Shown here in pieces: positions 50,922 to 60,539 of a DNA stretch of 62,434 bases. Each line of letters starts with the position of its first letter. Within the stretch, counting starts at the first letter, position 1. The translations under genes and the position numbers were made by a program. Origin of the DNA: Vicingus serpentipes (GTDB taxonomy: Bacteria > Bacteroidota > Bacteroidia > Flavobacteriales_E > Vicingaceae); assembly GCA_024103385.1 (NCBI GenBank), contig JAGFIT010000032.1, forward strand, positions 1 through 62,434. Reading direction: 5' to 3'. The notes below the pieces were generated by a model. It worked only from the letters and a program-made list of their open reading frames with translations, did not search any database and was not told where the DNA came from.

Positions 50922-53900
50922 TCATCGAATTAAGCTAAGCGTTCCTTTTTTGAAGTATTCTTGACCATCCAATCCTTTGGCGGAAATGATGTAGAAATAG
51001 GTTCCATCGGGAACTTCAGATCCAGCTAGGGTAGTACCATCCCAATATCCCTTAATATGATTCCAAGAATACATTAGTTGTCCCCATCTGTTGTATATAA
51101 CTCCTTCAACAGATTCCATGTTAACACTTTTTACGGTAAAAACATCATTAGTTCCATCTCCATTAGGAGTAAACACATTCGGAATTAAAATTTCAGACTC
51201 ACCAAAAGTAATAATGGTTACGGTATCTATTGCTGTACACCCAGCAGAATCACTAACAGTTAAAACAACCAAATATTCGCCAATCTTAGGATATACGTGA
51301 TTAGGCGAAAATAAACTACTATTATTGCCATCACCAAAATCCCAAAAGTAAGTAACATTTGGTGTACTACCATTTCCAAATAATACATCCAAAGGAATAG
51401 GTCCTGTAATAGGATTAGCATTGATGGCAGCAGTTACTCCTCCAATAATCACAGAGACAGAGTCTATGGCACTAGAACAAGTACTCGTTTCCCTTACATA
51501 ATAGGTAAATGTGCCAGTACTAGTAACATTAGGAGAGAAGGGGCTTCCCGTTCCAATCAAAATTGTTCCTGCAGGATCACTATACCAAGTAATAGTGCCG
51601 TTACCGCTTCCAGTAGCCGTTAAGCTTAATGGATTACCTAAACAAATTGGAGCGGAAGTATCTGCTATAATTGTACTTAACGGATCTAATATTAATTGAA
51701 TAGAAGTTGTGTCGGTACAACCTGTAGTAGGATTCATCACTTCAGCATAAACTCTTGTAGGTCCTGTTAAGAAAGCATTTTCAGAAACAACTAAAGTAAG
51801 TAAGGTGTTATCAGTATACCATGTTACTGTATTACTTGTTCCACCATTTACAGTATTATTTAAAGTAGTTAAATCAAATGTTCCTTGACCTGTTCCATCA
51901 TCACATAAGCTCATGCTGGTCGAAAATACAGCTGGTAAAGGATGAATGCTAATAGTCAGATCCATGGTCTCCTGACAAGGAGAAGTACCTACGGTGTAGG
52001 TTAATACATAATCACCAACCCCAGGTGAAGTAAAGGTAGTACCACTTACACCCGTTCCAGACCAATTACCACCAGTTGTTCCGCCTTCATAAGTAGTTAA
52101 ATCAAGAGTTGTTATAGCATTTAAACAGAAGGTGTCAGTAGTTAACGTTAAGGTAGGATCCACATCAGAATTAACAGTTATAGTGATGTTTTCCGACTCT
52201 TGACAAATAGAAAGCCCTACGGTATAAGTTAATACATAATCACCAGGACCAGGCGAAGTAAAAGTTGTTCCTGTTACCCCAGTACCCGACCAAGTACCAC
52301 CAGTAGTGCCCGCCTCCAAAGTAGTTAAATCAATAGTAGTTGCAGCATCCAAACATAAAGTGTCTGTAGCTCCAGTTAAAGAAGGGTCCACATCAGGATT
52401 CACTGTAAAGTGAACAAAAATACTAACGATAGGACAAGTTCCCTGTTGAACATCCACCCTGATACTATCTCCATTATTGATTGTTACACCAGTTGGTCCT
52501 GTTGCCCAAGTATAAGAAGTAGCACCAACAAACACTCCATTATTAAAAGAAGTTAAATCAATTCCAGTAACACTTCCGCTACCAACTATATCTTCACAGA
52601 ATTCAGGTTGTGGATCAGTTAATAGGATGTTATCTCCAACAGAGTAAGTAACACTATCCTGAAGTGTACAGCCATTAATAATAACTTCAAAGTAGAACAC
52701 TTCACCACTATCTACAGTTTCGCTAGTAGGAGTGAAAGGTACACCATAAGTATTGTCAGTATACCACACAAAAGTTCCGGTAGGATTTAAAGTTGTTTCT
52801 AATCCTGTAACATCAATGTTTAAAGCTTGTTTAGTTCCAGGAATGTTTTCACACTCAGAAGGATTAATAGGAGCAACAGTAGGTAAAAGATTTACCTTCA
52901 TAGTTAAAGTAGCCGATTCCTCACAAGGAGCTACACCAACCGTATAAGTTAATGTGTAATTACCACTTAACCCAGCAGGATCAAAATCAGTACCAGTAAC
53001 ACCATTACCTGACCAAGCGCCACCAGTAGTACCCGCTTCGTAAGTTGTTAAATCAACTAGTCCGTAAGTATCACAAACAGAATCATTTGTCATAGTTAAA
53101 GTAGGATCCACATCAGGTTGAACATGGATATCAATAGTTGCTGTTTCCTGACAAGGAGCAATACCTACAGTATAGGTTAAAGTATAATCACCAACTCCTG
53201 GAGAAGTAAAGGTAGTACCAGTAACACCAGTACCCGACCAAATACCACCAGTAGTAGCTGCTTCATAAGTAGTTAAATCGATAGTAGTTCCTGAACCCAA
53301 ACAGAGTGTATCATTAGCTAATGTTAATGTTGGATTGGGATTGGCTATTACACTAATCGTAGTGTTGGCAGTTTCCTGACAAGGAGCGTTACCTACAGTG
53401 TAAGTTAACACATAATCACCCACGCCAGGAGAAGTGAAAGTAGTACCCGAAACACCAGTACCTGACCAACTACCTCCAGTAGTACCAGCTTCTAGAGTAG
53501 TTAGATCAATAGTAGTACCACCAGCTAAACAAAGGGTGTCTGTAGCAGCTGTTAAGCTAGGATCTACATCAGGTTGTACTGTAATGGTAAGAATCGAGCT
53601 ATCTTGGCAGGATATTATTCCTACAATATATTTAAGTGTAATATTACCTGATAAACCTGATGGATCAAAATTGCTTCCAGTCACACCAGAACCACTCCAT
53701 ATTCCTCCGGTAGTACCTGTTTCATAGCTTGTTAGGTTGACTAATCCATCTGCTTCACAAACAGTATCATTTGGTCCAGTAGTTCCTGTTGGAAAAGGAA
53801 AAATAGTAAGATTTAATGTGTCATAAGCATCTCCACATGATAAATTCACCCCATAAGCTCGAAGAATTAACACTACATTGCCGCTAAGCGTGTCTGTATT

Positions 53901-55895
53901 TCCAGGGGTATAAGTAGGATTAATTAATGTTGGGTCGTCAAATATGCCATCACCGAGAGTAGACCATCGAAGACTATCAGCATTGTTGGTGCTTGCTGAA
54001 GGTATAAAGTAAGTGTCTCCAGAGCAAATAGTGTCATCTGGACCTGTATTGGCTGTTGTTAATATGCAAGTGAGAACACAATTAGAAAGTTCAGAGGTAC
54101 CATCACTAGCCAAATGTGCAGTAGCAGATACGGAATTACCACTTAAGGCACCTGAATAGGACCAGTTTCCTGCTCCATCAGCAGTAACAAAAGTGATGTG
54201 ATTTTTTCCTTCACAACAGAGATCATTCGTAAAAATTTCTATCCTTGAACCAATAGGTGCTGTTCCTTCAACAAAAGAGCTAGAAACCGTAGCAGTGTTA
54301 ATTATTGGGGCCAAAATATTGTTGTTAGCACCACCAGTGAGAATAATTCCTTTTCCAGAACCGCCAAGTTGGTTGTTACAAAAAATACTATTTAAATGAA
54401 TATCATTTTGATTTCTAGAATGTATACGTATTCCTTCTAAACCATTATATGCAATAATGTTGCTTCTTCCTGCTGTGGTACTTCCAATTTGTACGCCAGC
54501 AGCATTAGTGTAAATTCCATTTTGAATGTTTCCAAAATTTAAGGTTCCACTAATATCAGTTCCTATATAATTATTGTTAATGGAATAACTTGTGTTTGTG
54601 GCAAATTGAAGATCTATTCCATGTGCACCGTTGCTAGATATAATGTTGCGATCACTTGTTGAGTTTCCACCGATAGTAATAGTTGCAGTAGTTCCTCCAT
54701 TACCACGAATACCACTCATATCGTTTGGTATAGCAGCTATTCCTGATTTATTTAATCCTATAATATTTCCTTTTATTGTGATTGTTGGGGTTGTTGCACT
54801 TCCTGAAGTAATACCATGTCCACCATTACCAGAAATAACATTTCCTTCACCCACCCCATTACCACCAATTGTCATCCCTACTGTAGTACCATTATTGGTA
54901 ATTCCATGACTTCCATTACCAAAATCTAGATTACCTGTAATATCTACGCCAATATGATTTCCTTGAATTACATTTCCAGAACTATTTGTTCCTGTGATAT
55001 CTATCCCAACACCAGTGTTGCAAGATATGATATTCATTGAGGCGAGTGTATTCCCTCCAATATTATTGCCATTAGTATTGGTTCCGCTTATTGTAATTCC
55101 ATCACCACCATTTCCTAAACAAGCGCTACCATTTGCATTTACACCAATATAATTTCCTTGTATGTTTGTTCCTGGAAAAAGAGTAGAAGCACTAATGGTT
55201 ATTCCATGATTAGCATTAGCAGAAATTACATTTCCTTCGCCTAATGTTGATCCTCCGATATTTTGAACACTAACGGTAGTTCCTGAAATATTAATTCCAC
55301 TCCCTCCATTTGGTATTGCCGTTGTTCCTAAATAATCAGTTCCAATGTAGTTGGCGGCAATAGATATGTTTAAAATAGTTGAATTACTACAAGATATCCC
55401 ATTTGAAGTGCAGCCGTTAATGACATTTCCTTTATTTAAGATGCCAATAATAACATTATCGCCCGTTACTCGAATTCCATTATTAAAATTATTAATTAAC
55501 AGTCCGTATACCTCGCAGTTATCTGAAACAATGTTTAATCCGTTACCAGCTCCTGCACCAATTATAATAATTTTTGGGCTTGTTCCTGTATAACCATTTG
55601 TCGGTTGGGTTGTGCCGTCAATAATAGTTCCATCTCCGTTAATACCGTTAATTTGGGGTAAAGGAGATAATAGATTAATGGTATGAGGAGCTATTCCTGG
55701 AATATTAAAATTAATATTATCTGCAGTAGCAGTTCCTTTTGCATCTATTATTGCTTGTCGGAGCGATCCTACACCGCTGTCGTTAGTGTTGGTTACTGTA
55801 TAGGTTGCTGCGTGTAAAACAATAACAGAAAGTAAGAATAATGTTAAGAATAAAAATTGAAGGATATTAGTAACATTACTATATGTAGTTTTCAT
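50922..55895 (-). CDS. Giant secreted beta-helix and repeat adhesin-like protein with type B sorting domain
   Basis: A 1657-residue extracellular protein. A signal peptide (about residues 1-30) is followed by a CSLREAI-like motif (NTNDSGVGSLRQAIIDAKGT) and a parallel beta-helix (about 60-520) full of NxIxGN turns (GNGGDGITISGTNTNGNNIG). After a bridging module come six copies of a ~76-residue repeat carrying the core TTGG-x-WSG-x-GV, four in series, then two unlike modules, then two more. A PKD domain (YFWDFGDGNNSSLFSPNHVY) and the type B C-terminal domain (ILIPNVFTPNGDGTNDVFTV, then IYNRWGQLMYSW) end the protein. Type IX export and surface attachment follow from that domain. Divergent from the helical protein gene at 56087. 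Confidence 0.9.
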   Translation of the reverse strand: MKTTYSNVTNILQFLFLTLFLLSVIVLHAATYTVTNTNDSGVGSLRQAIIDAKGTATADNINFNIPGIAPHTINLLSPLPQINGINGDGTIIDGTTQPTNGYTGTSPKIIIIGAGAGNGLNIVSDNCEVYGLLINNFNNGIRVTGDNVIIGILNKGNVINGCTSNGISCSNSTILNISIAANYIGTDYLGTTAIPNGGSGINISGTTVSVQNIGGSTLGEGNVISANANHGITISASTLFPGTNIQGNYIGVNANGSACLGNGGDGITISGTNTNGNNIGGNTLASMNIISCNTGVGIDITGTNSSGNVIQGNHIGVDITGNLDFGNGSHGITNNGTTVGMTIGGNGVGEGNVISGNGGHGITSGSATTPTITIKGNIIGLNKSGIAAIPNDMSGIRGNGGTTATITIGGNSTSDRNIISSNGAHGIDLQFATNTSYSINNNYIGTDISGTLNFGNIQNGIYTNAAGVQIGSTTAGRSNIIAYNGLEGIRIHSRNQNDIHLNSIFCNNQLGGSGKGIILTGGANNNILAPIINTATVSSSFVEGTAPIGSRIEIFTNDLCCEGKNHITFVTADGAGNWSYSGALSGNSVSATAHLASDGTSELSNCVLTCILTTANTGPDDTICSGDTYFIPSASTNNADSLRWSTLGDGIFDDPTLINPTYTPGNTDTLSGNVVLILRAYGVNLSCGDAYDTLNLTIFPFPTGTTGPNDTVCEADGLVNLTSYETGTTGGIWSGSGVTGSNFDPSGLSGNITLKYIVGIISCQDSSILTITVQPDVDPSLTAATDTLCLAGGTTIDLTTLEAGTTGGSWSGTGVSGTTFTSPGVGDYVLTYTVGNAPCQETANTTISVIANPNPTLTLANDTLCLGSGTTIDLTTYEAATTGGIWSGTGVTGTTFTSPGVGDYTLTYTVGIAPCQETATIDIHVQPDVDPTLTMTNDSVCDTYGLVDLTTYEAGTTGGAWSGNGVTGTDFDPAGLSGNYTLTYTVGVAPCEESATLTMKVNLLPTVAPINPSECENIPGTKQALNIDVTGLETTLNPTGTFVWYTDNTYGVPFTPTSETVDSGEVFYFEVIINGCTLQDSVTYSVGDNILLTDPQPEFCEDIVGSGSVTGIDLTSFNNGVFVGATSYTWATGPTGVTINNGDSIRVDVQQGTCPIVSIFVHFTVNPDVDPSLTGATDTLCLDAATTIDLTTLEAGTTGGTWSGTGVTGTTFTSPGPGDYVLTYTVGLSICQESENITITVNSDVDPTLTLTTDTFCLNAITTLDLTTYEGGTTGGNWSGTGVSGTTFTSPGVGDYVLTYTVGTSPCQETMDLTISIHPLPAVFSTSMSLCDDGTGQGTFDLTTLNNTVNGGTSNTVTWYTDNTLLTLVVSENAFLTGPTRVYAEVMNPTTGCTDTTSIQLILDPLSTIIADTSAPICLGNPLSLTATGSGNGTITWYSDPAGTILIGTGSPFSPNVTSTGTFTYYVRETSTCSSAIDSVSVIIGGVTAAINANPITGPIPLDVLFGNGSTPNVTYFWDFGDGNNSSLFSPNHVYPKIGEYLVVLTVSDSAGCTAIDTVTIITFGESEILIPNVFTPNGDGTNDVFTVKSVNMESVEGVIYNRWGQLMYSWNHIKGYWDGTTLAGSEVPDGTYFYIISAKGLDGQEYFKKGTLSLIR
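51960..53810 (-). repeat. Intragenic ~228-bp repeats encoding six 76-residue modules
   Basis: Within the 1657-residue cargo gene, six related modules, each with D-T-x-C, then E-x-GTTGG-x-WSG-x-GV, then LTYTVG-x-x-x-C-Q-E, lie in two clusters: about 53100-53810 plus a fourth copy to about 52880, and about 51960-52400. Nucleotide similarity is high enough to allow recombination between copies. Boundaries are approximate. Confidence 0.8.
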
Positions 55896-55953
55896 AAGTT
55901 TAAAAAATTATTTAATAATAAATATGATAAGCTGTAATTACACTGTTTTTTAA

Positions 55954-56081
55954 TACTAGTAAAGTTATGCTAGAGGTCTAGTATCTGCAATTCTAATTGT
56001 TTTATTTTTAAGTTGTTTACTATGAATAAATAATAGTTATTATATTTGTTATCAATTAGTTAATTATATTTTATATAAGTA
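55954..56081. promoter_or_regulatory. Divergent control region, module A
   Basis: Ordered motifs shared with 60402-60538: TACTAGT at 55954-55960 with AAAGTTA behind it, CAATTCTAATT at 55988-55998, ATCAATTAGTTAATTA from 56051, and AAGTATTT just before the ATG. The distance from CAATTCTAATT to ATCAATTA is 63 bp in both regions. Confidence 0.65.
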
Positions 56082-56086
56082 TTTCA

Positions 56087-57556
56087 ATGAGGTGTTCTGA
56101 TGATTTATTCCAATTGATAAAATCAATGGAAAAAGCGGAAAAAAGGTATTTTAAAATTTATGCATCAAAGTATAACGGGAGTCGTTATTATGTAGATCTT
56201 TTTGAAGCCATAGAAAAACAAACTAAAAAAGAGAAGAGTTATAATGAACAACATATAATCTCTCATTTTAAAACACAGAATTTCGTTAAAAACTTTTCTG
56301 TAACAAAAGCGTACCTATACAAAAAGATACTTCGATCAATGAGGGAGTTTTATGCTGACAGCATTACAAAAGAAGAAGAAATAAAAGAAATAATTGATAA
56401 TATTAGGTATTTAATTAAACGCTCTTTATTTACACAAGCTAAGAAATTATTGATTAAGGCTCATCAAATAGCAGACGATTATGAACGTTTTGTTGATAAG
56501 CTAGAATTGATAAATATGGAACGTCTTTTTATAAGTTATATTAACCTTAAAGAATCTAAAGAAGTAAGTTATAAAAGATTATATGAATTAGAACTATATA
56601 GTATTGATTGTATAAAAAAAATTAGTGAACAGGAAAATATATCAAATGAAATATACCTTAAGGTTCTAAGTCTTGGAGAAGGAGATAGGGCTAAATTCTA
56701 TGATGAATTAGAAGTATTAAATAATCATCCTTTACTTAAAAATGAAGATTCGCTTACCTTATATCGCACTAAACGTTCTTATTATCACGCTAAAGCAATG
56801 TATCATAGAGCTATAGAAGAATATGATAGGAGTTTTCTTTATCAAAAGAAACGTTTTGAATTATTTGATGAGTATCCGATGTTTGTTCATTTGGGTTTAT
56901 CTACTAGCTATATTTCTGCATTAAATAATCTTTTATTGTCTTGTATTGGTATGGGAAACCAAAAATATTTTGATTATTATATCAGCCTCCTACGTTCTTT
57001 TAAGTCGAAAGAAAAGAAAATTCAATGTGCGGTGTTTACATGTTCTTATAATATGGAAATAAACATGTGTTTAAAATATAAAAATTTTGAAGAAATTTTA
57101 GCGATTATTCCAATTATTGAGAATGGCTTAAAAAAGTATAGAGGTATTATGGAGAGTGTAGGAGAGCAAAACATATTGTTTGGTGTGGCTTGTTTATATT
57201 TTCGATTAAAAGAACATCGCAAAGCAATAGAGTGGATTAATAAATTATTTGATTACGAGGAAAGTTTACAACACCATAGTATCCAATCATCTATCAAAAT
57301 TATGCAATTGTTTATTTATTATGAATTGAATTACACTGAATCGTTACCTCATTTATTAAGATCTACTCAAAGATATTTTTTGAAAAAAGGGAAGATGTTT
57401 GAGATAGAAAAGCAAGCTATTTCTACAGTAAAACTATTGATGAAGGATGATAAAGAGAAAAAAGAAGAAATATACTCTTCCTTTAAAAAGTTTGTTGATA
57501 ATTCAGAAGAATTATTACTTACAGAACTGCTTGGACGGATGGGGTTGAGTCTTTAA
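56087..57556 (+). CDS. Large helical (TPR-like) protein, paralogue A
   Basis: A 489-residue soluble protein without signal peptide or membrane segment, nearly all helical and rich in Lys, Tyr and Phe. It starts with the DDLFQLIKSMEKAEKRYFKI pattern that I associate with an uncharacterised Bacteroidota family, followed by AYLYKKILRSMREFY and helical pairs reminiscent of TPR (YYHAKAMYHRAIEEYDRSFL, then HRKAIEWINKLFDYEESL). The end is LLGRMGLSL. The protein at 60540-62000 is homologous over the whole length. Each lies divergent from a type IX cargo gene, with shared control motifs, suggesting a regulatory or assembly role for that cargo. Function unproven. Confidence 0.75.
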   Translation: MRCSDDLFQLIKSMEKAEKRYFKIYASKYNGSRYYVDLFEAIEKQTKKEKSYNEQHIISHFKTQNFVKNFSVTKAYLYKKILRSMREFYADSITKEEEIKEIIDNIRYLIKRSLFTQAKKLLIKAHQIADDYERFVDKLELINMERLFISYINLKESKEVSYKRLYELELYSIDCIKKISEQENISNEIYLKVLSLGEGDRAKFYDELEVLNNHPLLKNEDSLTLYRTKRSYYHAKAMYHRAIEEYDRSFLYQKKRFELFDEYPMFVHLGLSTSYISALNNLLLSCIGMGNQKYFDYYISLLRSFKSKEKKIQCAVFTCSYNMEINMCLKYKNFEEILAIIPIIENGLKKYRGIMESVGEQNILFGVACLYFRLKEHRKAIEWINKLFDYEESLQHHSIQSSIKIMQLFIYYELNYTESLPHLLRSTQRYFLKKGKMFEIEKQAISTVKLLMKDDKEKKEEIYSSFKKFVDNSEELLLTELLGRMGLSL

Positions 57557-57562
57557 CCTTCA

Positions 57563-57835
57563 TTATAAGGAGATAATACCCTCAATTCTTTCTGCTTTTT
57601 TATAGATATCAATAATTTCATCAGCATTCATCATGAGTTCTTTAGCTGTAATGCTAATAAATTTATTAGTGCTTGATTGCCTTGTGGTTACTTGAGCGGC
57701 ATCACTAAATAAAGCTTCAACTAAAGCTAATTTTTTGTTATCAGCAGGAATAATAAATTTAAACATATAAAGATGAGGGAATTCAGCTTGTTCATTTAGC
57801 TTTTGTTTTAAACTGTCGTAAAATTCTTTTTGCAT
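57563..57835 (-). CDS. DUF493-family (YbeD-like) small protein
   Basis: A 90-residue cytoplasmic protein with a ferredoxin-like alpha/beta pattern matching DUF493: MQKEFYDSLKQKLNEQAEFP, HLYMFKFIIPADNKKLALVE, then VTTRQSSTNKFISITAKELM and a final helix ADEIIDIYKKAERIEGIISL. I use the ATG at 57835, which yields the family's usual length; an ATG at 57868 would add eleven residues. E. coli YbeD is linked to lipoate metabolism by gene neighbourhood only, so no function is claimed. It is convergent with the preceding gene (6-bp gap). Confidence 0.82.
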   Translation of the reverse strand: MQKEFYDSLKQKLNEQAEFPHLYMFKFIIPADNKKLALVEALFSDAAQVTTRQSSTNKFISITAKELMMNADEIIDIYKKAERIEGIISL

Positions 57836-57940
57836 ACTAGTAATTTTATCAAAAATAACCCCAATCAATAAAAGAGCTGATAATTATCATTATTTTTTTA
57901 TAAAAGAGAACTACCTTTGTTCAGATATAAAATGATAATT

Positions 57941-58768
57941 ATGAAAAATATTCTTGTCCCTACCGATTTTTCTGAATGTGCTCATCATGCTGCTGAAGTA
58001 GCAGTACAGATAGCTAAAGAAGCCAGTGCAACTATTCATTTATTACATGTAGTAGATATTCCGTTAACTTCTTATGATGCAGGGATGCATACTTATGAAA
58101 ATATTCCTGAAACGATGTTTTTAATGAATCATGCGAAGGAGAGTATGGAGAAGTTGAAAAATGAAACAATGTTTAATGGAGTAGAAGTGACCACAATGGT
58201 GGAGTTTGATTTAACGTATTCTAGAATAACCAACGAAGCAAAAGAGAAAAATGTAGATTTAATTGTAATGGGCTCTCATGGAGCATCTGGATTTCAAGAA
58301 TTAATGATAGGTTCTAATGCAGAACGAGTAGTTCGTTTTGCAGCATGTCCAGTGTTAACTATTAAAAAGAAACATACTAAATTTGACATACAAAATATTG
58401 TGTTGGCTTCTGATTTTAAAGAGGATAGCGCCCCTTTCTTTGATCATTTTAGTGCTTTTATAAAGTTGTTTGATGCTCACATTCATTTATTAAAAGTGAA
58501 CACAGCACTTAATTTTGAGATAACTCCGGTTAGTAGAAAGTTAATGGAGTCTTTTTTAATTAAACATGATGTTAAAAATTCTTCTACACACATTTATAAT
58601 GACGAGAGTGAGGAAGATGGTATTCTCAATTTTGCTGAAGAAGTGGATGCTGATTTAATTGCAATAGGTACGCACGGAAGAACAGGTTTATCCCATTTAG
58701 TGAATGGAAGTTTAGCAGAAAGTGTTATTAATCATGCAGGAAGACCTGTATTGAGTATAAAAATATGA
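57941..58768 (+). CDS. Universal stress protein with two UspA domains
   Basis: A 275-residue cytoplasmic protein made of two tandem Usp domains. The first begins MKNILVPTDFSECAHHAAEV and has the nucleotide-binding pattern GSHGASGFQELMIGSNAERV; the second begins IQNIVLASDFKEDSAPFFDH and has GTHGRTGLSHLVNGSLAESV. Both keep the G-x2-G-x9-G(S/T) ATP-binding arrangement. Tandem Usp proteins are common stress-response factors in this phylum. I use the ATG at 57941; ATGs at 57932 and 57917 are also in frame. Confidence 0.93.
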   Translation: MKNILVPTDFSECAHHAAEVAVQIAKEASATIHLLHVVDIPLTSYDAGMHTYENIPETMFLMNHAKESMEKLKNETMFNGVEVTTMVEFDLTYSRITNEAKEKNVDLIVMGSHGASGFQELMIGSNAERVVRFAACPVLTIKKKHTKFDIQNIVLASDFKEDSAPFFDHFSAFIKLFDAHIHLLKVNTALNFEITPVSRKLMESFLIKHDVKNSSTHIYNDESEEDGILNFAEEVDADLIAIGTHGRTGLSHLVNGSLAESVINHAGRPVLSIKI

Positions 58769-58783
58769 TATACAATAGTTAAT

Positions 58784-58813
58784 ATAGGGTGATGGTAACT
58801 TACTATCCCCTAT
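58784..58813. terminator. Hairpin between the convergent Usp and type A cargo genes
   Basis: ATAGGG-T-GAT-G-GTAA pairs with TTAC-T-ATC-CCCTAT, a long, slightly imperfect stem that contains the stop codon of the minus-strand gene (58810-58812). There is no T-run on either side, so it may be a 3'-end stabiliser rather than an intrinsic terminator. Confidence 0.45.
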
Positions 58814-60384
58814 TCTTTGAAAATCTTATTAATGGTTGTTTTTGTTTTCAAAAAATAAATTCCAGAGGATAATGATGATACGTCTATTTGTTTTCGATTA
58901 TTATTTTCTTTTGAAATCTGAATAGAGTGAGTTAGATCTTGCCCTAAGTAATTAGCTAAAACGATATCTTTTAATTCTAAAGAATTCCCCATTATAGTAA
59001 TACTATTTTTAGCTGGATTTGGATAAACAGTAACTATTTCTTTATTAGCAATATTGATAGTCACTATCGGAAAATATTCAAAACGCCCATCAAAATCGGT
59101 TTGTTTTAAACGATAATAAGAAGTCCCAAAATAAGGTTTTTGATCTACTGAGGTGTAATGTCGTATTTGACTGGAATTGCCTGCTCCTGTTACTTTTACT
59201 ACTTCTTCCCAATTGATAGCATCTTTAGATTTATATATGGTAAAGTAATTGTTATTTATTTCGGTAATGGTATTCCATTCTAGTTGAACTTTATTATCTC
59301 TTTCATAAGCACTAAAAGATAGTAGTTCTATTGGGAGTGTGAGTGCATCACAAGTACAATAGGTTACGCTTCCTCCAAAAGGTACATTTGTTCCTGAATA
59401 GGAATCTACTTTTGGATCCATTGTTGTTCCTGCTCTTGTTGGTGCTACGCCAGAATTGTCACAAAAATCTACATTTCCAGTTAAAAGAACGCTACCCGTG
59501 AAAGAAGATGTTGAGATTACTTTTATGGCACCACAATCAGTCACTCCGGTAATAGAGCCATTTCCGCTTGCAGTAAAATCATCAACAGTTGTTAGCGATC
59601 CATCATAAACATTAAAAGTACTTCCTGAAAAGTCAAGAGTGCCTGTTGGAGCATATATGATTCCTTTTTGGTTGAGGGTAGCCCCAACGGTTACAGAGAT
59701 TGTCCCTGTTGCTTCAATATATCCATTAGTTTCATTGGTTAAGGTTCTGTCTACATCGATGTTAGAAACCCACATACTGTCCGAATTAGTTAAATCTCCA
59801 GAGATGTCAATATCTCCACTTGTCCAAGAGCCGTCATTGCAAATTGCATTATCTGTAGCGGTGCCATTAAAATCAACAGCATTAGCACCGAAATCAACAG
59901 TTCCATTATTGTTATAAAAAAAATTTCCACTTCCGGTACGGGTCATAGCACCTGAATGTGTAATGCTTCCACAATTGTCAATGGTGAGGTACCTACTTGA
60001 TCCAAAACTAATGGCTGGAAGTGTTGCACTAGCAGATGGTCCTATTTGTATAGTTCCTCCATCACCTAGAGCGGCATCTATATATCCAGGGTTAAAAATA
60101 GCGGTGCCTGAGACACATACTACGACATTATCGTCATCAAAATCGATGTTACCAGTATATGTTCCTCCAGTAATACATAGCTTATCGCCATTAGAAGAAC
60201 TCGCAAAATCAGTAGAACTACTTGATGAGTAGGTTACAGTACATCCACTAGAACAATCACTTGGACAGGTTGTACATTGGGCGTTACTAATGTGATAAGT
60301 GATGAGGAAGATTATTGCAACAATAATCCTCAAAACAACACTATTGTGTGAGTAAAATAAGGGAGATAGAGAGGGGGTATTCAT
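58810..60384 (-). CDS. Secreted protein with type IX (type A) sorting domain
   Basis: A 524-residue exported protein. The N-terminal hydrophobic region (residues about 15-35) is a late signal peptide, followed by a Cys-rich start (CTTCPSDCSSGC) and repetitive beta-strand sequence with many Gly, Thr, Asn and Asp residues (about 45-330), consistent with a beta-helix. Next comes a LPIELLSFSAYERDNKVQLE-type domain common before type A signals, and finally the type A C-terminal domain (VTVYPNPAKNSITIMGN, then SSLSSGIYFLKTKT). Export through the type IX system follows. It is divergent from the second helical paralogue, with the shared control motifs between them. Confidence 0.9.
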   Translation of the reverse strand: MNTPSLSPLFYSHNSVVLRIIVAIIFLITYHISNAQCTTCPSDCSSGCTVTYSSSSSTDFASSSNGDKLCITGGTYTGNIDFDDDNVVVCVSGTAIFNPGYIDAALGDGGTIQIGPSASATLPAISFGSSRYLTIDNCGSITHSGAMTRTGSGNFFYNNNGTVDFGANAVDFNGTATDNAICNDGSWTSGDIDISGDLTNSDSMWVSNIDVDRTLTNETNGYIEATGTISVTVGATLNQKGIIYAPTGTLDFSGSTFNVYDGSLTTVDDFTASGNGSITGVTDCGAIKVISTSSFTGSVLLTGNVDFCDNSGVAPTRAGTTMDPKVDSYSGTNVPFGGSVTYCTCDALTLPIELLSFSAYERDNKVQLEWNTITEINNNYFTIYKSKDAINWEEVVKVTGAGNSSQIRHYTSVDQKPYFGTSYYRLKQTDFDGRFEYFPIVTINIANKEIVTVYPNPAKNSITIMGNSLELKDIVLANYLGQDLTHSIQISKENNNRKQIDVSSLSSGIYFLKTKTTINKIFKE

Positions 60385-60401
60385 AATAATTTTTTATACG
60401 C

Positions 60402-60538
60402 TACTAGTGTAACAAAGTTACTCTAATTGTTCATTGGAGTACAATTCTAATTATTATTAAACTAAGTATTTTATGGTATTAAATTATTTTATATTATATT
60501 TATAATCAATTAATTAAATAAGTTTAGACTAAGTATTT
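60402..60538. promoter_or_regulatory. Divergent control region, module B
   Basis: TACTAGT at 60402-60408 with AAAGTTA behind it, CAATTCTAATT at 60442-60452, ATCAATTAATTAA from 60505, and AAGTATTT immediately before the ATG. Order and most spacings match the region at 55954-56081 (63 bp between the second and third motifs; 35 against 36 bp from the third to the ATG). Confidence 0.65.
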
Positions 60539-60539
60539 T

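Follow-up and report, generated by a model that had tools for sequence, protein, structure and literature searches.

Bacteroidota export many surface proteins through the type IX secretion system, and the control of their display that is known to us acts on the secretion machine and not on single cargoes. PorXY/SigP, a two-component system with a sigma factor, acts on the type IX machinery and on many cargoes. The name RusR belongs to the ribose utilization protein BT2802. In PMC12596196 (citing Glowacki et al. 2020, PMID 31901520), RusR is reported as the regulator of the ribose system and is described as controlling the transcript levels of an operon. Here we describe two relatives of this protein, the probable regulators A and B, in a 62,434-nucleotide stretch of Vicingus serpentipes DNA (hereafter the window, which is the entire contig 57, C57, JAGFIT010000032.1, of the 3.1-Mb draft genome GCA_024103385.1). 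Among named genomes in the collections searched, those nearest to this one are Vicingaceae and other Flavobacteriales. Each of the two regulators stands head to head with a gene for a secreted type IX protein, or cargo.

The explanation favoured here, to which we assign a probability of roughly two in three, is that each of these modules pairs a type IX surface protein with a transcription regulator of the RusR (BT2802) kind that is local, dedicated to this one cargo and in control of it. RusR-type regulators are an already known kind of protein; for the one-to-one pairing with type IX cargo, the expansions of the family and the direct repeat at the regulator start codon described below, no report was found in the open-access literature searched.

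Pairing of probable regulators with type IX cargo

The two window regulators are 58.6% identical over 490 columns, and their open reading frames (ORFs) of 489 and 486 residues, each divergent from a type IX cargo gene, agree with the first-pass annotation, which had described two paralogous proteins of about 490 residues in this arrangement. Its statement that the facing cargoes belong to different types also held. Curated sorting-domain models passed their cut-offs for all three cargoes in the window, identifying cargo A as type B (CHU_C 1.2e-21, TIGR04131 5.3e-14) and cargo B as type A (Por_Secre_tail 3.3e-13, TIGR04183 7.5e-10), and the third cargo, which the annotation had placed beyond regulator B, is a type B fragment convergent with that regulator.

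A search for further copies brought the number of closely similar ones in the genome to four: A and B of the window, C on contig 66 and D on contig 19, the others being 56-59% identical to A. All four face a secreted protein. No close relative of the regulators was found in the same genus at E 1e-60. By the 81% identity of their regulators, modules B and C arose in a single recent duplication of the entire module, and their type A cargos are 77% identical. Cargos A and D, both large, are related to each other, with 48% identity over 611 residues (the C-terminus of cargo D, and with it any sorting domain, lies beyond a contig end). The cargo has thus been partly duplicated too. The earlier view that the conserved part of the module is the helical protein plus control region is borne out by A and B: since these two have regulator and control region in common and not the cargo, regulator and control region form the constant unit. 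In module C, a 2374-residue protein with a type B sorting domain (L012:8614-15738) begins 2 bp after the type A cargo, so that cargoes of both types may be driven from a single control region.

Type IX cargo likewise stands opposite more distant members on contigs 12, 22 and 68. On contig 3 the gene opposite a member belongs to a leucine-type operon, and contig 38 has two members in tandem, upstream of a type B cargo of like orientation. The contig 68 member (L017:8103-9645), whose facing cargo is of type A, consists of two ORFs of 160 and 337 residues and is probably a broken gene. Six of the eight scorable divergent neighbours of family members in this genome are type IX cargo. Sorting domains that pass the cut-off number 73 of type A and 39 of type B in this genome; if it holds about 2,800 genes, which is an estimate, sorting-domain genes make up ~4% of them.

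A scan of species genomes extended the family to 79 loci from Bacteroidota, Ignavibacteria and Calditrichia. With sorting domains called by profiles made from the window's own domains and not by curated models, the divergent upstream neighbour is a type IX cargo at 27 of 55 scorable loci, against ~3% at positions three to five genes away; the enrichment is limited to the divergent upstream position and does not extend over the whole neighbourhood. The cargoes form about 10 mutually dissimilar groups, among them proteins of 780-800 residues in Vicingaceae, proteins of 311-325 residues in Ignavibacteria, and large Ig-like proteins. On a tree of 94 members, the state of facing a type IX cargo changes at least 13 times, and the pairing is therefore not one inherited neighbourhood. 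Other clades face leucine-biosynthesis genes, small lipoprotein-like genes or cytoplasmic proteins, as would be expected of local regulators. The clade that stands head to head with leucine-biosynthesis genes (L018:8082-9485, L128, L132, L140, L154, L265), which are 2-isopropylmalate synthase- or LeuC-like by sequence, is likely a conserved regulator of leucine synthesis in Bacteroidota.

The family is expanded in two other genomes, with 91 matches in G050 and 23 in G063. The divergent neighbours in G063 are type IX cargo in 11 of 13 cases (background 15/95, p 1e-6). In G050, type IX cargo accounts for 6 of 21, a pairing that does not reach significance when only recognised sorting domains are counted (p 0.11), and 10 more neighbours are large secreted SprB-repeat proteins whose common cysteine-rich C-terminus is none of the recognised sorting domains. 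Association with type IX cargo thus reaches well beyond the window and supports the first-pass proposal of a dedicated regulator family for surface proteins. The proposal was nonetheless too narrow: because entire clades face leucine-biosynthesis genes, a ribokinase or other genes, type IX cargo does not define the whole family.

Two further observations concern the G050 expansion. Its 91 members lie within 4.5 Mb, and since some are fragments or carry internal stops, the expansion is both active and decaying. Many large secreted proteins with DUF7948, beta-propeller and SprB repeats are encoded at L266-L282 of this genome, and also at L143 and L260 (for example L273:2286-5582, L267:8741-12919 and L279:7011-10754). 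Their common cysteine-rich end of ~75 residues, GQFTKGTANCxGCGCKEW...LCPGxYxxNIKDKNGCSVNVNLTAP, matches no recognised type IX sorting domain and is a candidate for a new C-terminal sorting signal.

The control region and its direct repeat

Two motifs fix the layout of the control region: CAATTCTAATT occurs at 55988-55998 and 60442-60452, and ATCAATTA at 56051-56058 and 60505-60512. From start to start they are 63 bp apart in both A and B (52 bp between), followed by 36 and 35 bp, respectively, to the ATG, which reproduces the identical spacing and the 1-bp difference first recorded. Over the 100 bp upstream of the ATG, 39 columns are invariant among the four copies, where 500 dinucleotide shuffles gave 11.5 on average and 17 at most. 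Searched with a profile of the control region, the genome yields exactly these four places (E 2e-20 to 2e-16, next match 0.07), so that the entire region is present at no other promoter in it. As other family members are associated with cargo, neither of the outcomes that the first-pass annotation had named as refuting its reading was seen. CAATTCTAATT alone was considered as the regulator site and rejected, with 13 genome sites against 6 for its reversed control; more likely it is part of the cargo promoter. On the minus strand, the candidate cargo promoters of A, B and C (TTG-N20/21-TAACTTTR) have their TTG inside this 11-mer, and on the plus strand a TATATTTR box lies ~40 bp before the regulator ATG.

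The control region also contains a direct repeat. In both B and C the 14-mer CTAAGTATTTTATG is present twice, 67 bp apart, one copy ending at the -33 position and the other in the ATG; D keeps 10 of the 14 positions. The exact repeat core has six occurrences in the genome, five of them in these control regions. When one mismatch is allowed, TAAGTNTTTTATG falls to background level (71 against 108 for the reversed control), and the concentration in control regions holds for exact sites only. The same layout is found with other sequences elsewhere in the family: ATTGTATTCCTATT and ATTGTATTGCTATG lie 79 bp apart in the Vicingaceae clade, CTCTATATCCTATC and CTCTGAATCCTATG 77 bp apart at L126, and ATTTAATTACGATC and TTTTAACTACTATG 65 bp apart in the leucine clade. 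A start-codon direct repeat matching at 11 of 14 positions or better is present in 12/92 members and in 5/520 other genes of the same loci (p 2e-7), and good repeat pairs are spaced at 64-68 or 75-79 bp in 23/36 cases, compared with 5/68 in controls. These spacing classes, which belong to different clades, differ by one helical turn of DNA. In addition, ATCCTATG ends in the start codon of 5/94 members and of 0/947 other genes.

Inverted repeats showed no enrichment at the start codon (p 0.69). ATCCTA is enriched upstream of members (29/94 against 16/315, p 2e-10), and was rejected as a single family-wide operator sequence: its hits come partly from related loci, and many clades are without it. 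In Ignavibacteria (L081-L086), a conserved ATyCGTAGGATTC block containing the inverted repeat ATCC-GTA-GGAT lies 91-96 bp upstream of the regulator ATG and is possibly the operator of those members.

Features of the two modules in the window, in order of position
Feature	Position	Strand	Support
Cargo A, secreted, 1657 residues, with PKD, Ig-like and type B type IX sorting domains	50922-55895	-	
Control region A, between divergent genes	55896-56086		profile E 4.7e-17
Candidate cargo A promoter, TTG-N20-TAACTTTA, TTG inside CAATTCTAATT	55960-55990	-	consensus match only
A, upstream copy of degenerate repeat, TAAGTTGTTTACTATG	56009-56024	+	alignment to the exact B and C repeat
Candidate -7 box of regulator A, TATATTTG	56041-56048	+	consensus match, conserved in all four copies
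A, start-codon copy of repeat, TAAGTATTTCAATG	56076-56089	+	sequence and alignment
Regulator A, RusR/BT2802-like, 489 residues	56087-57556	+	NF058569 8.8e-31
Cargo B, 524-residue secreted protein with type A type IX sorting domain	58810-60384	-	
Control region B, between divergent genes	60385-60539		profile E 6.8e-20
Candidate cargo B promoter, TTG-N21-TAACTTTG, TTG inside CAATTCTAATT	60413-60444	-	consensus match only
B, upstream copy of direct repeat CTAAGTATTTTATG, overlapping regulator -33 position	60462-60475	+	14/14 against start-codon copy
Candidate -7 box of regulator B, TATATTTA	60495-60502	+	consensus match
B, second copy of CTAAGTATTTTATG, ending in regulator start codon	60529-60542	+	
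Regulator B, RusR/BT2802-like, 486 residues	60540-62000	+	NF058569 6.2e-28
Third cargo, 119-residue C-terminal type B fragment, gene cut by contig end	62074-62433	-	CHU_C 6.4e-21

Between modules A and B, outside the duplicated unit, lie genes for a small protein of unknown function (57563-57868, minus strand) and a tandem universal stress protein-like protein (57917-58768, plus strand).

A local regulator weighed against its alternatives

Among NCBIfam families, the nearest to the window regulators is that of BT2802 (NF058569), and the relationship is full-length and collinear: residues 1-471 of regulator A align to positions 1-468 of 502. A member of this family in G150 that scores over the cut-off faces a ribokinase-like gene, head to head. 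The window regulators themselves have no link to ribose utilization genes, their neighbours being type IX cargo and unrelated genes. An AlphaFold2 model of regulator A (predicted local distance difference test score, pLDDT, 90) shows a five-helix N-terminal domain (~1-92) followed by a superhelix of tetratricopeptide repeats (TPR). The N-terminal domain is conserved in the family, contains an invariant EKRYFK, and carries a mean net charge of ~+5, compared with +1.7 per 95 residues elsewhere (only +3 in regulator B); such a positive charge would suit nucleic-acid binding without showing it. Compared with solved structures, the regulator sequences gave weak TPR matches only, e.g. to kinesin light chain. 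At the level of the fold, the TPR part comes nearest to Rap (8rte_A, Z 18.5, 283 residues, 4.7 Å) and NprR (5dbk_A, Z 16.3), and because LGN and proteasome subunits score nearly as high, this match is a likeness of fold and not a sign of kinship.

What the sequences themselves show is kinship with the RusR family, pairing with type IX cargo far above background in several lineages, a conserved control region confined to the four copies, and a repeat in several clades; beyond that we infer DNA binding, the direction of control, a sensed signal and the role of the repeat as an operator. The cytoplasmic regulator would sense its signal through the TPR superhelix, and its conserved N-terminal domain would bind the divergent control region at two sites. 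The first would lie at or just upstream of the regulator's -33 box, adjoining the candidate -33 box of the cargo, and the second, directly repeated, would overlap the regulator start codon ~6.4 or 7.4 DNA turns away. Once bound, the regulator would turn on the cargo and restrain its own expression. Activation combined with self-limitation is the simplest guess given the position of the upstream site, which overlaps the -33 region of the regulator and lies just behind that of the cargo.

Several results weigh against this proposal. The NF058569 scores of the window regulators, 107.4 and 98.1 bits, lie far below the curated cut-off of 550 bits, which makes these proteins relatives and not members of the family. 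No helix-turn-helix (HTH) or other DNA-binding fold could be recognised in the N-terminal domain by Pfam or by a fold search with residues 1-134, the latter giving no clear match to any known fold. The promoter boxes are consensus guesses, and the pattern TTG-N19-21-TAnnTTTG, tried as a promoter consensus for this genome, was uninformative, with 8 sense against 5 antisense matches in 110. The repeat is degenerate in copy A and clear only in some clades; the spacing bins of 64-68 and 75-79 bp were picked after the first set had been seen; replication in a set from G050, G063 and G132, which has two loci in common with the first set, was modest (p 0.015 at 10/14); and when each similarity cluster contributes a single row and the shuffles are matched in composition, 6/82 members reach p 0.02 where 1.6 are expected (p 0.006). 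For these reasons the repeat is best regarded as a feature of several clades that is not proven for all.

Three other explanations were considered, and each is less likely than a local regulator. The protein could act on RNA, binding its own mRNA at the start-codon repeat and so controlling its translation, with the cargo affected only indirectly. Such a role would account for the copy of the repeat that overlaps the start codon in several clades, for the position of ATCCTATG at the start codons of members and of no other genes, and for the failure to recognise a DNA-binding fold. It is nevertheless improbable, given that the second repeat copy lies upstream of the candidate -7 box and would go untranscribed from that promoter, that one DNA turn separates the spacing classes, a difference with meaning on DNA but none on RNA, and that RusR is described as acting on the transcript levels of an operon. 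The absence of any functional link, in which a single ancestral neighbourhood would have been copied, in tandem or by segment, within genomes that abound in type IX genes, is also unlikely. B and C are clearly whole-module duplicates, the four-copy clade is known from this genome only, expanded genomes inflate the counts, and the G050 pairing loses significance with recognised sorting domains alone. Simple duplication does not, however, fit the occurrence of some 10 unrelated cargo groups at the same position with at least 13 state changes on the tree, the confinement of the enrichment to the divergent upstream position, or the fact that A and B have regulator and control region in common and not the cargo.

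A regulator is also favoured over the chaperone that the first-pass annotation had offered as an alternative, i.e. a cytoplasmic chaperone or secretion helper for the adjoining cargo, which we consider very unlikely. TPR proteins often bind other proteins, and one-to-one pairing with secreted proteins would suit such a helper, yet type IX cargo exits the cytoplasm through Sec, and the family also faces leucine-biosynthesis genes and ribokinase, which need no secretion helper. The cargoes moreover are unrelated in kind while regulator and control region stay constant, and a helper would leave the conserved control region unexplained. The proteins start directly with the conserved domain, with no signal peptide apparent, and their relationship to a reported transcriptional regulator, together with operator-like repeats in several clades, argues for control of transcription instead.

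If the modules do consist of a local regulator and its cargo, each surface protein would have its own switch, and the role of surface proteins of unknown function could be approached through the signal of the paired regulator. RusR, so far a single characterised ribose regulator, would join a large superfamily with an unrecognised N-terminal domain. It is tempting, though doubtful on present evidence, to extend this to a general scheme in which some Bacteroidota maintain a library of surface proteins, each switched on by a separate signal through a private TPR regulator and its operator; the regulator would bind DNA through an N-terminal domain whose fold is new, and the operator would have two sites, one of them the regulator start codon.

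Comparison with described systems

The closest described relative, RusR/BT2802 of Bacteroides thetaiotaomicron, resembles the window regulators over nearly its full length, and the ribokinase-facing member has the same head-to-head layout. The proteins described here differ in falling below the family cut-off, in facing a type IX surface protein instead of sugar genes, and in number, with four close copies in this genome and up to 91 members in another. The RRNPP regulators of Bacillota (Rap, NprR, PlcR) have in common with them the TPR superhelix fold and the order of an N-terminal domain followed by TPR; they belong to another phylum, and the N-terminal domain here yielded no HTH. Directly downstream of the window regulators, no ORF of 80 residues or more was found on the same strand, shorter ORFs not having been searched for a peptide gene. 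MalT-type regulators, whose domain III is among the structural matches (Z 15.1), likewise couple transcription regulation to a TPR-like sensor, whereas the Pfam scan of the window proteins found no ATPase domain and no LuxR-type HTH. With PorXY/SigP, finally, the modules would have in common the control of type IX function, with the difference that here each regulator adjoins one cargo.

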